Assembly: GCF_019823105.1 (NCBI RefSeq)
Contig: NZ_CP081958.1
Coordinates: 1,054,001-1,118,000 of the forward strand
Length of the DNA: 64,000 bases
Source of the DNA: Halobaculum magnesiiphilum
Lineage (GTDB): Archaea; Halobacteriota; Halobacteria; Halobacteriales; Haloferacaceae
Direction of reading: 5' to 3'
The position numbers and the translations under genes are program-made. The notes under the pieces are model-generated. The model worked only from the letters and a program-made list of their open reading frames with translations. It was not told where the DNA came from and did no database searches. Shown here piece after piece: positions 36,672 through 42,071 of the stretch (position 1 is the first letter of the stretch; each line of letters opens with the position of its first letter).

Positions 36672-36849
36672 GGGGTCGTGGCCAAGCCCGGTATGGCGAC
36701 TGACTCCAGAGGCAACGCGCCCGGTGACGAACTCCAGACTGATATACCGAGCGTCCGACTGATCATCGGACGCGACGACGACCCTCTGGAGTACCGAGGT
36801 GCCGACCGGAGATATCAGTCGATCGGGGGTTCAAATCCCTCCGACCCCA
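36672..36849 (+). tRNA. tRNA-Trp (CCA anticodon), interrupted by a 104-nt archaeal intron
   Basis: The acceptor arm GGGGTCG (36672-36678) pairs with CGACCCC (36842-36848), with discriminator A36849. The D arm is GCC/GGC. The anticodon stem ACTGA (36699-36703) pairs with TCAGT (36815-36819). The anticodon CCA is at 36706-36708 and the T loop is TTCAAAT. The exons total 74 nt. The intron lies between positions 37 and 38, its usual site in haloarchaeal tRNA-Trp. CCA is not encoded at the 3' end. Confidence 0.95.
36710..36813 (+). ncRNA. tRNA-Trp intron with bulge-helix-bulge splice site and box C/D-like elements
   Basis: The splice motif is explicit: CTCC (36704-36707) pairs with GGAG (36808-36811) as a 4-bp helix, flanked by 3-nt bulges AGA (36708-36710) and ATA (36812-36814). 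Cutting after the second base of each bulge excises 36710-36813. Inside are a box C-like GTGACGA (36724-36730), CTGA boxes (36739-36742, 36759-36762), and a perfect 8-bp hairpin (GCGTCCGA/TCGGACGC). In Haloferax this intron guides 2'-O-methylation of tRNA-Trp C34 and U39; here that role is inferred from position and boxes. Confidence 0.8.
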
Positions 36850-37171
36850 TTCTTCCGTGCGTTCGAGTCGCGTAGTCTCGGGTTTCTCTGTGTTCGGAGC
36901 GACGCGTTAGGCGTGTTGAGTCGGGTGAAGGGTATCGCGGCGGCCGAGAGCCGGAGGAGATCATGCCTTTGTGGTCCGGGATATCTATCAGACGCTGAAT
37001 GCAGTGCAAAGGCTACGCCGCAGGACTCTCGGCAGACGAGAGGTCACTCAGATTTGTCGAACGCGAATGATTTTCTGTAGAACGCAGAGACATAGTTGTA
37101 ACCGGAAGTTACGCGGTTGTCTATTCTATGATATCCGGTCATCTATTAAAGACAATAAGAACAGATTGTGA
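36850..37171. other. AT-rich intergenic stretch downstream of tRNA-Trp
   Basis: Gene-free. Base composition falls sharply from about 36960 on, towards the low-GC gene at 37172. I found no copy of the tRNA 3' end that would mark an attachment site, and no integrase. It is probably the left edge of an acquired segment. Confidence 0.5.
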
Positions 37172-38023
37172 TCACAAGACCCTAGCAAGAATATTGATAG
37201 CTGTTGTGAAAATATTTGCTTGTATAGCTAAACTCAGAACAGCTACGATGCCACTAATTACAGCAATCCATGTAGGAATAGGCTCCAACTCCTCACGTCG
37301 CGAGTTCACGTGGAAGGTTACCTCTTGACGATCAAAAAATGTTCTTCTTAATGAGGGATCATTATAAAATAGAATGAATTTTATCGAATAGTCTCCCGGA
37401 GTTGCGGTATCTTTGATATTCAGTCTTAACCTAAACGGCGGGAAATCCTGTCTCATTTCAGAGGTAATCTGGGGAATTCCATTGGGAGCATCCTCCTTAG
37501 AAGGATTGCCTGAATCAAATGCTCTGGAGGTTTTACTAAACTCGGAAGAATCACTAGTGAGCCAATTTGGCAATGTCAGAGATGCCCCTGATGGATTGAT
37601 CTCATGAGTGATATTGTCCACAGAACTACTAGAGGCAGGCTCTACCCGCTGTATTTCTAGGTCAGCAGCCCCGTCTATATGCCCTATATCTTTCATATCT
37701 TCGACATAACCAACGTCACGAAGCTCATCGGCTGCATCAAATTCATCCAGATTCACGACTTCTGTCGCTAATGTCACCTCAGGCTCTCCTTCCAAATATT
37801 CTTTAATTGTTGTTGTCTCACGCTCATATCCAAGTATGATTTCTCCCGGGTCTTCTGAGATTAGATCCTCATAGTCCCAATTAATAATCAATTTGTTTTC
37901 TCCAAGTTTGGTTGTTCCACCGATATATAAGTCAACAACAACCGAATCTCCACGGTCAACGTCTGGAGTCTGTAAATTGGGAATGAGAGAAAATGCCGAG
38001 GACATCCTTTGTCTACCTGTCAT
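37172..38023 (-). CDS. Unknown low-GC protein with C-terminal membrane anchor (island gene)
   Basis: A 283-residue protein I do not recognise. It lacks a signal peptide. The body is a mix of beta-strand-like segments (VVVDLYIGGTTKLGENKLI, RLRLNIKDTATPGDYSIKFI) with the look of immunoglobulin-type domains. The last 45 residues hold one hydrophobic helix (IPTWIAVISGIVAVLSLAIQ). Codon use is AT-rich and unlike all neighbours, which indicates transfer. ATG at 38023 is preferred over a TTG one codon earlier. A TTTACATAAT box lies upstream. Confidence 0.65.
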   Translation of the reverse strand: MTGRQRMSSAFSLIPNLQTPDVDRGDSVVVDLYIGGTTKLGENKLIINWDYEDLISEDPGEIILGYERETTTIKEYLEGEPEVTLATEVVNLDEFDAADELRDVGYVEDMKDIGHIDGAADLEIQRVEPASSSSVDNITHEINPSGASLTLPNWLTSDSSEFSKTSRAFDSGNPSKEDAPNGIPQITSEMRQDFPPFRLRLNIKDTATPGDYSIKFILFYNDPSLRRTFFDRQEVTFHVNSRREELEPIPTWIAVISGIVAVLSLAIQANIFTTAINILARVL

Positions 38024-38254
38024 CAAAACCGTGATTATGTAAAGGTGACCAACCTGGGTGAAACAAATTTAATTTTATCTGATCCCCACGAATACGGCCG
38101 CCTGATCCGCCCTCCAGGCCGCATCCTCGGTGCAGATCGACGGAGATCAAAGCCAGGCTCACCAACTACGTAAAGCAGCTCCCATGTCGAGATGGCGCAC
38201 TTGTTCACGAAGCCGTCGCGCTCGACGAACCCCGCCACGCTCGACCCACCTTAT

Positions 38255-40567
38255 TCACTCATGCGCCTCGGGCGGCGCGACCCGCTCCATCGCCGCTTCG
38301 AAGTCGCTCATCGTCACCGACAGCGCGTCGGCGTGGTCGTTCGCGTCCTCGCCGAACTCGTCGGCGACGCGCTCGACGGCCCGCATCGTCGCCTCGCGCA
38401 CGACCGCCGTGAGTTCCGCCCCGGAGTACCCCTCGGTGTGGTCGGCCACGTCGTCCAGGTCCACGTCCTCGGCGAGCGGCGTGCGCTCGGTGTGGACCGC
38501 GAGGATCTTCCGGCGGCCCTCCACGTCGGGCAGGGGCACCTCGACGTGGCTCTCCAGGCGGCCGGGGCGCACGAGCGCGTCGTCGAGCGCCTCCCGGCGG
38601 TTCGTCGCCGCGATGACCGCGAGGTTGGGGTTGCTGCTGGCACGGTCTAGCTCGGTGAGCAGCTGGGAGACGACGCGCTCGCCGACGCCCGAGGAGTCAC
38701 CCATGCCGTCGCGGTCGGTCGCGATGGCGTCGATCTCGTCGAAGAAGATGATACTGGGCGCGGCCTGTCTGGCGCGCTCGAACACCTCCCGGACCGCCTT
38801 CTCGGACTCGCCGACGTAGCGGTCGAGCAGCTCCGGCCCGGCGACCTCGATGAAGTTCACCTCCGACTCGCCGGCGATGGCCCGCGCGAGCAGCGTCTTC
38901 CCGGTTCCGGGCGGGCCGTAGAGGAGCACGCCGGTCGGCGGGTCGGCGCCGGCGGCGTCGAACAGCGGCGCGTACGTGAGCGGCCACGTGACCGCGCGTT
39001 CGAGCGTCTTCTTCGCCTCCGTCAGCCCGCCGACGTCGTCGAAGGTGGTGTCGGGCTGTTCGGCGACGTACTCGCGCATCGCGGACGGCTCGACCGCCGC
39101 CAGGGCCGACTCGAAGTCCGCCCGGATCACCTCGACGGTCGCGAGGTCGACCTCGCTGTCGGCGTGGCGGGCGCGGCGGAGCGCGGTCAGCGCGGCCTCG
39201 GTCGTCAGCGAGTCGATGTCCGCGCCGACGAAGCCGTACGTCCGCGCGGCGAGGCGGGCGACCTCCACGTCGTCGGCGAGGGGCATCCGGCGGGTGTGGA
39301 CCTCCAGGATCTCGCGGCGGCCGGCCTCGCCGGGGACGCCGATCTCGATCTCGCGGTCGAAGCGGCCGCCGCGCCGGAGCGCGGGGTCGATCGAGTCGAC
39401 GCGGTTCGTCGCGCCGATGACGATCACGTCCTCCCGGGCGTCGAGGCCGTCCATCAGCGAGAGGAGCTGGCCGACGATCCGGTTCTCCATGTCGCCGCCG
39501 TCCTCGCGCTGGCCCGCGATCGAGTCGATCTCGTCGAAGAAGATTATCGCCGGCGCCGACTCGTCGGCCTCCGCGAAGATCTCCCGGAGCTTCTCCTCGC
39601 TTTCGCCCTTGTACTTCGAGGTGATCTCGGGACCGGACACGGAGATGAAGGTGGCGTCGACCTCGTTGGCGACGGCCTTCGCGATCAGCGTCTTCCCGGT
39701 TCCCGGCGGCCCGTGCAGCAGCACCCCTTTCGGCGGGTCGATGCCGAGGCGGGCGAACACCTCCGGCTCCGACAGCGGGAGTTCGATCGTCTCGCGCACC
39801 AGGTCGAGTTCGTCGTCGAGCCCGCCGATGTCCTCGTAGGTGACGCCGCCGGCGGGCGGCGTCGACGGCGCGGCGGCGGCATCCGACGCCCCATCGGCGC
39901 CGTCCTCGCCTCCGGCCGCACCGGCACCGGCGCCGCCCCCCGAACGCCGGTCGCGGGTGGGTAGGTCGAGCGACGCACCCGTGCCGGACGTGGAGGCGTT
40001 CACGCCGTCGCCCGCACCCTCCTCTCCCTCGTCGGCGTCGCCGGCGCCCGCCCCGCCGGGGTCGCGCCGTTCGACGACGACCTTCGTGCCGTCGTGGATC
40101 TTCACCGGGCCCTCGGGACGGGTCGCGCGGACGACGAACACGTTGCCGCCGAGGTGCGGGATCCGCACCTGCTCGCCCGCGCTGACGGGGCGGCCGTCGA
40201 GGTCGCGCTTGGCCGCCCGGGCGAGCGTCGCGTCGTCGATGTCGACGCCGTCGAGCGCCGCGGGCGCGGTCAGCGTGACGGCGTCGGCCTCGCCGACGCG
40301 CTCCTTGTGGACGCGCACGCGCTCGCCGATCTTGGCGCCGGCGTTGGCGCGGGTCTCGCCGTCGACGAGGATCTCGCCGTCCTCGGCGCCGGTTCCGGCG
40401 GGCCACACCTTCGCCGCCGTCTCGCGCTCGCCCGCGATCACGACCGTCTCCCCGGACAACACGCCGAGTTCACTCATCGCCGTGTCGGACAGGCGCGCGA
40501 TGCCGCGCCCGGCGTCGCGCTTGGCCGCGCCGCGGACCGTCAGCGCGAGCCCCTCGTCGTCGCTCAT
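38255..40567 (-). CDS. CDC48/VAT-type AAA+ ATPase
   Basis: A 770-residue unfoldase. N domain (1-165): double-psi barrel plus C-subdomain. Linker 168-240 is Gly/Asp/Ala-rich and expanded. AAA domain D1 has [13 protein letters not shown] and [12 protein letters not shown]; domain D2 has [13 protein letters not shown] and [16 protein letters not shown]. Both have intact Walker A and B and arginine-finger regions ([19 protein letters not shown]). The archaeal homologue feeds substrates to the proteasome. The ATG at 40567 fits the family start. Confidence 0.95.
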
Positions 40568-40654
40568 GTCACCCGGTTTGGAGGGCGGGGGCTTACCGCT
40601 TTCCACGTCGCGTCCGAACGTGTGCTCCGTCAGGGGGGTCGAGCCCGAGACGTG

Positions 40655-40846
40655 ATGGTCACGGCGGCCGAACGTGCGAGCGTGTTCGATGCGCCGCCCT
40701 GCCCGGACTGTGGCAGCGCGTTCCTCGTGACCCGGGTGCGAACCCACGGGTACCCACGGCGGCCCGACGGGGGAGTGACACGGTTCTACCGCCGTTTCCG
40801 GTGCTTCAGCGAGTTCTCCGACGGGGACCTGGTCGACCGGGAGTGA
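40655..40846 (+). CDS. Small zinc-finger-like protein
   Basis: A 63-residue ORF divergent from cdc48. It has CPDCGSAF near residue 17 and a lone Cys in FRRFRCFSEFS, so the second half of a zinc site is incomplete (His residues could complete it). The pattern HGYPRRPDGGVTRFYRR is ordered, and it resembles other haloarchaeal micro-zinc-finger proteins. The function is unknown. Confidence 0.5.
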   Translation: MVTAAERASVFDAPPCPDCGSAFLVTRVRTHGYPRRPDGGVTRFYRRFRCFSEFSDGDLVDRE

Positions 40847-41387: not shown

Positions 41388-42071
41388 GTGTTAAGTTAGG
41401 AATGAGGCGGTCGTTGGTTCGGGTGATCTATGACCGAATTCGACCGCCTCAGCGGAGATATCGAGTGGATCGACTTGGAGTTTGTGGAGCGAGAGCGGAC
41501 ACCCGAGCAGATCATTGAAGTCGGTATTCAACTCCATCTCGCGGGTCTATCACTTTCGAATACCAAACAGTATCTTGAGAGGTTGGGTGTCGAACGGAGT
41601 CGTACCGCGATTCATAACTGGGTACAGAAGGCAGATCTACAGCCGGCTGGCGACGGAGCTCCGAATCAGATCGCAGTCGACGAGACAGTGATTCGGATCA
41701 ACAACGAACGACACTGGCTGTACGCTGCCGTCGATCCCGAAACGAACGAATTCCTCCATGTTAGGCTGTTTCAGACGAGAACCACGCAACTCACCGTGCT
41801 GTTCCTTCGTGAACTCCGCGAGAAACAGCAGATCGAGCAAACGACTTTTCTCGTCGATGGAGCGCACTATCTCAAAGCCGCGCTGGAGCGGCTCGGACTC
41901 CGATTTCAAATATCTCGCCACGGAAATCGGAATGCTGTCGAACGTGTCTTTCGTGAGGTAAAACGCAGAACCTCTTCGTTTTCAAATACGTTCAGCAACG
42001 TGGAGCCACCGACGGCAGAATCGTGGCTCCAAGCCTTCGCCGTCTGGTGGAATCGATGCTAAAGTTAACAC
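41388..42071 (+). mobile_element. IS6-family insertion sequence, complete
   Basis: A 684-bp element. The left end reads GTGTTAAGTTAGG and the right end, reverse-complemented, GTGTTAACTTTAGC: imperfect terminal inverted repeats sharing GTGTTAA and TT. One transposase gene fills it. It inserted between uspA and the DUF7500 gene, interrupting no recognisable ORF. Lower GC than its surroundings supports recent arrival. Confidence 0.85.
41430..42062 (+). CDS. IS6-family transposase
   Basis: A 210-residue DDE transposase of the haloarchaeal IS6 type. An N-terminal helix-turn-helix (LSLSNTKQYLERLGVERSRT, then AIHNWVQK) precedes the RNase H-like core with the triad visible as VDETVIRI, FLVDGAHYLKA and NAVERVFREVKRRT. 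The frame is intact and the full family length is present, so the element could be active. It ends at WNRC, 9 bp before the right terminus. Confidence 0.92.
   Translation: MTEFDRLSGDIEWIDLEFVERERTPEQIIEVGIQLHLAGLSLSNTKQYLERLGVERSRTAIHNWVQKADLQPAGDGAPNQIAVDETVIRINNERHWLYAAVDPETNEFLHVRLFQTRTTQLTVLFLRELREKQQIEQTTFLVDGAHYLKAALERLGLRFQISRHGNRNAVERVFREVKRRTSSFSNTFSNVEPPTAESWLQAFAVWWNRC

Follow-up and report, generated by a model that had tools for sequence, protein, structure and literature searches.

Introduction

Two described archaeal systems are closest to the locus analysed here. In Haloquadratum walsbyi, unrelated sequences of 20 bp to over 100 kb, found at identical positions in two strains of the one species, have been named deletion-coupled insertions; their mechanism is unknown, and some of them carry virus-defence genes (PMC3119063). 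The second system is the tRNA-targeting integrative elements of archaea (PMC8371274). The locus lies in a 64,000-nucleotide stretch of the Halobaculum magnesiiphilum genome, referred to below as the window, and consists of a short AT-rich island between tRNA-Trp and cdc48.

Like the deletion-coupled insertions, the island is a haloarchaeal case of unrelated sequences between shared flanks with no site duplication: the block 37099-38080 and its counterpart L100:4976-6089 in a sister genome are unrelated, with both flanks shared. It differs from them in that the swap is between species of a genus, involves a single gene on each side, and is accompanied by an integrase remnant and a tRNA on one side. 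The tRNA neighbour, the tyrosine-recombinase trace, the foreign composition and the sporadic distribution resemble the cargo of tRNA-targeting elements, whereas the window holds neither an intact integrase nor a duplicated tRNA end and only one gene is left. The gene of the island is very probably mobile-element cargo exchanged at a hotspot beside tRNA-Trp. Taken as a whole, the best explanation, to which we give a probability of roughly 45%, is that this hotspot cargo encodes a tail-anchored, cytosol-facing protein that may act in defence or superinfection exclusion.

An AT-rich island beside tRNA-Trp

The GC content of the window is approximately 0.70 and falls to 0.42-0.48 at about 37.0-38.1 kb, forming an AT-rich block of about 1 kb whose sole gene encodes a protein of 283 residues (P0001). 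The GC content of this open reading frame is 0.42, with a GC3 of 0.36; of 1,223 segments of the same size taken from the rest of the 64 kb, none is as low, the minimum being 0.547. An earlier note, made from the letters of the sequence, had described an abrupt compositional shift and a single-gene island at 36850-38254; the shift, the single gene and the recovery before cdc48 all hold, but the foreign block, judged against the nearest genome, is smaller (Table 1). The tRNA-Trp gene is conserved across haloarchaea downstream of the same two genes. The cdc48 reading frame was taken from its first start codon, and the true start may lie inside it. The intron-bearing tRNA is detected by Rfam and missed by ARAGORN. 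A second AT-rich dip (GC 0.52-0.58) at 41430-42062 contains a 210-residue transposase-like reading frame, IS6-type by eye, around which no clear terminal inverted repeats were found.

Table 1. Features of the island between tRNA-Trp and cdc48, in window coordinates.
Feature	Position	Strand	Evidence or remark
tRNA-Trp gene with intron, integration site	36672..36849	+	Rfam RF00005, 48.1 bits
Decayed C-terminal end of tyrosine recombinase (integrase)	36869..37098	+	70% DNA identity to L100:4736-4975; tblastn E 4.7e-6 at 36913-37092
Lineage-specific cargo block	37099..38080		No homology to L100:4976-6089 (unrelated 1,114-bp block, sister genome); both flanks align
Cargo gene, 283 aa, predicted tail-anchored beta-sandwich protein	37172..38023	-	ATG at 38023; internal ATG codes Met7
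Predicted first half of beta-sandwich, residues 10-68	37820..37996	-	AF2 model and alignment
Predicted second half of beta-sandwich, residues 195-240	37304..37441	-	AF2 model and alignment
Juxtamembrane HVNSRREELEP stretch, best conserved segment of the family	37280..37312	-	Alignment
Predicted C-terminal membrane helix, residues 249-267	37223..37279	-	Hydropathy; AF2 helix 248-268
Old right flank common to window and sister genome	38081..38248		Alignment to L100:6090-6268, score 81 vs best 34 in 50 shuffles
Host gene for cdc48-type AAA ATPase, island boundary	38255..40747	-	Orthologues in 60/60 relatives searched

The earlier note had also suggested a tRNA-side integration site from which no integrase remains. 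The first part is borne out and the second is not, as a tyrosine-recombinase remnant adjoins the tRNA. Next to this tRNA in the sister genome, its counterpart has the sequence of a tyrosine-recombinase C-terminus interrupted by stops, and the window remnant matches it at the protein level as well as in DNA. Of 64 haloarchaeal loci, 6 have tyrosine-recombinase genes or parts of them in the 5.5 kb downstream of this tRNA, and none of the 64 has any in an upstream control. The window contains no second copy of the tRNA-Trp 3' end, as had been noted: a single match was found with up to 3 mismatches allowed. A duplicate may have been lost by decay. The site is therefore a decayed one and not an intact element, and the insertion now in the window can be neither dated nor ascribed to that integrase.

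Exchange of cargo within Halobaculum

A search with the family profile found the cargo gene in none of the ten other Halobaculum genomes, and the closely similar profile A1 does recover the window gene. The same gene kept throughout the genus with normal codon use, which would have spoken against a foreign origin, was accordingly not found. The order from tRNA-Trp to cdc48 is retained in three of the ten genomes and, in the comparison that the earlier note had proposed, all three hold other cargo there. In the closest of them (G394, locus L100; 97% identity in cdc48), the DNA is 100% identical to the window up to position 36852 and is followed by the integrase remnant at 70% identity (E 4e-16), a stretch at 37099-38080 without homology, the right flank at 66% and cdc48 at 96%. 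The two genomes thus differ by a one-for-one swap of 982 bp against 1,114 bp, each block containing one AT-rich minus-strand gene of a different family. The flanks adjoining the swapped block (66-70% identity) are older than the surrounding host genes (96-100%). The two further syntenic genomes have different content again, judged by eye to be a fasciclin-type protein and one of DUF2270 type.

The G394 cargo (L100:5052-5945) occupies the same site and strand, is AT-rich, and encodes a predicted membrane anchor plus beta-sandwich, yet it is not homologous to the window protein and has its own scattered set of genomes. Its model (pLDDT 67) comprises two N-terminal helices, a coiled helix and then the beta-sandwich, and the protein has no Pfam match. 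This cargo represents a second scattered AT-rich family, found in 29 of 243 genomes with a single-sequence search, and the relatives extracted are likewise AT-rich (GC 0.37-0.46). The sister island also contains a gene pair that by eye resembles a toxin-antitoxin system.

These comparisons are consistent with a history in which a mobile element with a tyrosine recombinase would have inserted next to tRNA-Trp in an ancestor and then decayed. The cargo beside the remnant now differs by lineage, each syntenic Halobaculum species having other genes.

Predicted fold and topology of the cargo protein

The window protein has one hydrophobic segment, at its C-terminus (residues 249-267 by hydropathy). 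An AF2 model built from a 30-row alignment (mean pLDDT 75.8, pTM 0.66) predicts one beta-sandwich formed by residues 11-67 and 197-239. The part in between is of low confidence, and the sandwich is followed by a helix at 248-268 and a short terminal helix. P0001 is thus predicted to be a cohesin/Ig-like beta-sandwich split by a variable central insert. In the family alignment, conservation is highest in the juxtamembrane HVNxxRExxEP stretch, and the central insert is the least alignable. The best Foldseek matches in the PDB, all weak (E 1.8e-4 to 1e-3), are a membrane-anchored corynebacterial protein (3lso), cohesins (6kge among the cohesin/Ig-like domains) and adhesins, at 12-13% identity and with a TM-score of 0.31-0.34 by query and 0.62 by target for 6kge. 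Unlike these domains, P0001 would be a single domain interrupted by a variable insert, with a tail anchor and a cytosolic location.

Hydropathy gives no hydrophobic N-terminus, and hence no predicted signal peptide, for 28 of 29 haloarchaeal members, and the C-terminal helix comes after positive charges; the positive-inside rule would therefore place the domain in the cytosol. We consider it probable that P0001 is tail-anchored with its beta-sandwich facing the cytosol. The Ig-like strands and single C-terminal membrane helix proposed from the sequence are therefore retained in the model, with a predicted orientation that is cytosolic and not cell-surface. A surface protein with an external Ig-like domain, serving adhesion, competition or receptor variation, is very improbable: its best fold matches are indeed adhesins, cohesins and integrin domains, but nearly all haloarchaeal members lack the N-terminal segment and the anchor lies at the very C-terminus behind positive charges. 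One distant, non-haloarchaeal member (L120:1441-2184) has a signal-like N-terminus, which agrees with a surface location, and its topology may differ.

The absence of a recognised family, proposed at the outset, extends to the databases searched: P0001 has no match in Pfam or NCBIfam, and 30 members have no convincing match in Pfam. No enzymatic domain was matched in P0001, and no PADLOC defence model matched P0001 or its L022 homologue. The family profile has no match among PDB sequences, a viral fold library gave nothing at E <= 0.001, and no match came from scanning genome and viral contig collections with individual proteins of the family. No description of the protein family was found in open papers.

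Distribution and phylogeny of the family

The protein family is undescribed and mainly haloarchaeal. A search with P0001 found members in 17 other genomes of the 392 in the order, and a profile search found about 35 full-length members among the 392; most haloarchaea have none. Weaker profile hits were short stretches of long proteins and were left out of this count. One member is present in a distant archaeon of the phylum outside the haloarchaea, and plasmid records contain one, on pHME505 of Haloferax mediterranei, where it is annotated as a hypothetical protein.

The family comprises two kinds of member. Those of kind A are sporadic, and relatives of this kind recur at unrelated places. 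Among ten kind-A loci measured, the gene is AT-rich against its surroundings in nine, and in eight nothing else in the 17-kb neighbourhood is as low in GC; of the two exceptions to the latter, the L022 gene lies within the lowest 2% and L024 is unremarkable, being AT-rich throughout. Kind B has normal GC and similar neighbours, forms one clade inside one other taxonomic family, and is kept vertically under purifying selection (dN/dS 0.12-0.59 in close pairs). Some copies in the family neighbour a housekeeping gene, that of S-adenosylhomocysteine hydrolase. The deep branches of the family tree are long and without resolution. The tree groups the window protein with L022, which comes from another taxonomic family (support 98/97), and requires three origins for the three members in family f4; horizontal transfer would produce both patterns. 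Judged from sequence comparison, a foreign AT-rich gene has been swapped beside a recombinase remnant, is absent from the rest of the genus and has spread horizontally. The family newly defined here recurs as solitary AT-rich cargo in haloarchaea.

The vertically kept subfamily suits an ordinary cell function as well. Under such an explanation, the protein would be a membrane-tethered adaptor or scaffold in stress, envelope or protein quality control, and the AT-rich copies would be horizontally acquired extra versions. The single clade, similar neighbours and dN/dS values of kind B, together with the copies by the housekeeping gene, agree with this. It is nonetheless unlikely, given that full-length hits occur in only about 35 of 392 genomes and that the sporadic members combine AT-richness with mobile-element genes nearby.

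Mobile context of relatives

Integrases or their fragments are found near six of the ten kind-A loci, in addition to the window, and near none of seven kind-B loci. In L025, an integrase immediately precedes the gene, whose opposite end lies 8 bp from an apparently truncated secretion-ATPase gene. In L024 (7802-9896), the gene is enclosed by two integrase pieces on one strand; the 80% identity of one piece to part of the other gives the impression of a tandem insertion of two elements. In L022 and L026, the gene adjoins an alphapleolipovirus-type Rep, and in L022, the closest relative of the window protein, the gene and the Rep lie between two integrases. The L026 Rep is 54% identical to that of Halfgib1 and 41% to that of HRPV-6. 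The Rep regions L022:8676-11117 and L026:5471-7897 are 90.6% identical over 2.4 kb, the identity ending at the Rep end, and the family proteins beside them are only 28% identical.

Within genus g60 the gene is intact in one genome, decayed in one (G111) and absent in one (G133); the decayed copy at L247:2631-3691 has a stop codon, a 24-codon deletion and an assembly gap, and a congener holds the locus of the intact copy. The decayed and the missing copy, and the virus-type Rep between two integrases beside the closest relative, are in line with an accessory virus or plasmid gene that served the element, for example by tethering the element's genome or proteins to the membrane, and was left behind without benefit to the host. 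Against this, the protein has no match in 50,697 phage records or, with two queries, in viral contigs, and no PHROGs family matches it; the window gene is intact although the adjoining integrase has decayed; and a vertical subfamily exists. A leftover element gene is therefore rather unlikely, though it is the foremost alternative to a defence or exclusion role.

No partner gene is conserved across the family loci. A winged-helix gene was considered as a fixed partner and rejected: it precedes the gene in L022 and L027, is further off in L035 and is found at none of the others. Adjacency to a tRNA was likewise rejected as a family property, as one tRNA-Pro (L026) was found near other members by ARAGORN and none by Rfam at gathering level.

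A possible role in defence or exclusion

A defence or exclusion role for P0001 is the leading guess and a tentative one. The protein is predicted to be tail-anchored, and its cohesin/Ig-like sandwich domain, together with the variable central insert, would lie in the cytosol. At the inner face of the membrane, it may bind a viral or plasmid component, whether the element is incoming or co-resident, as a means of defence or superinfection exclusion. Hotspot exchange, the virus-type Reps, Hma-like genes near L028, the toxin-antitoxin-like pair and a PLD-domain protein with weak DrmC matches at a second exchange site hint at such a role; the defence-like neighbours were picked from variable regions, with no background rate behind them. 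The absence of a known defence model, an enzymatic domain and a fixed partner, together with the vertically kept subfamily, suggests otherwise.

A second exchange site between a GvpO-like gene and mutS

In G154 of another genus (L031:7570-9488), a family gene lies between a GvpO-like gene and mutS. In congeners (loci L158-L164), the same interval is nearly empty or is occupied by the gene of the PLD-domain protein (GC 0.39), by AT-rich genes of small proteins (GC 0.41-0.43) or by a gene of GC 0.59. A leader comprising a winged-helix gene and about 400 bp is common to three congeners, and about its last 120 bp are also present in G154. Single-gene exchange is seen at two sites, from tRNA-Trp to cdc48 in Halobaculum and from the GvpO-like gene to mutS here, and such sites bear on the unexplained deletion-coupled insertions of Haloquadratum. 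They are also practical places to seek new haloarchaeal immunity or exclusion genes.

A broader and quite improbable extension is that haloarchaea maintain fixed chromosomal sites where one AT-rich gene is replaced by another between conserved flanks, several of these genes encoding membrane-tethered, cytosol-facing beta-sandwich proteins of unrelated families. Such sites would serve as a store of immunity or exclusion genes that are exchanged like cassettes but lack integron-type machinery.

The winged-helix gene beside the exchanged cargo (L158:3552-3833, L160:2160-2480 and L164:2193-2453) matches HVO_A0261-type and CRISPR-regulator HTH domains. The second site of four congeners also contains a TnpB-like protein with a Cas12f1-like TNB domain (L158:2545-3351, with counterparts in L159, L160 and L164).
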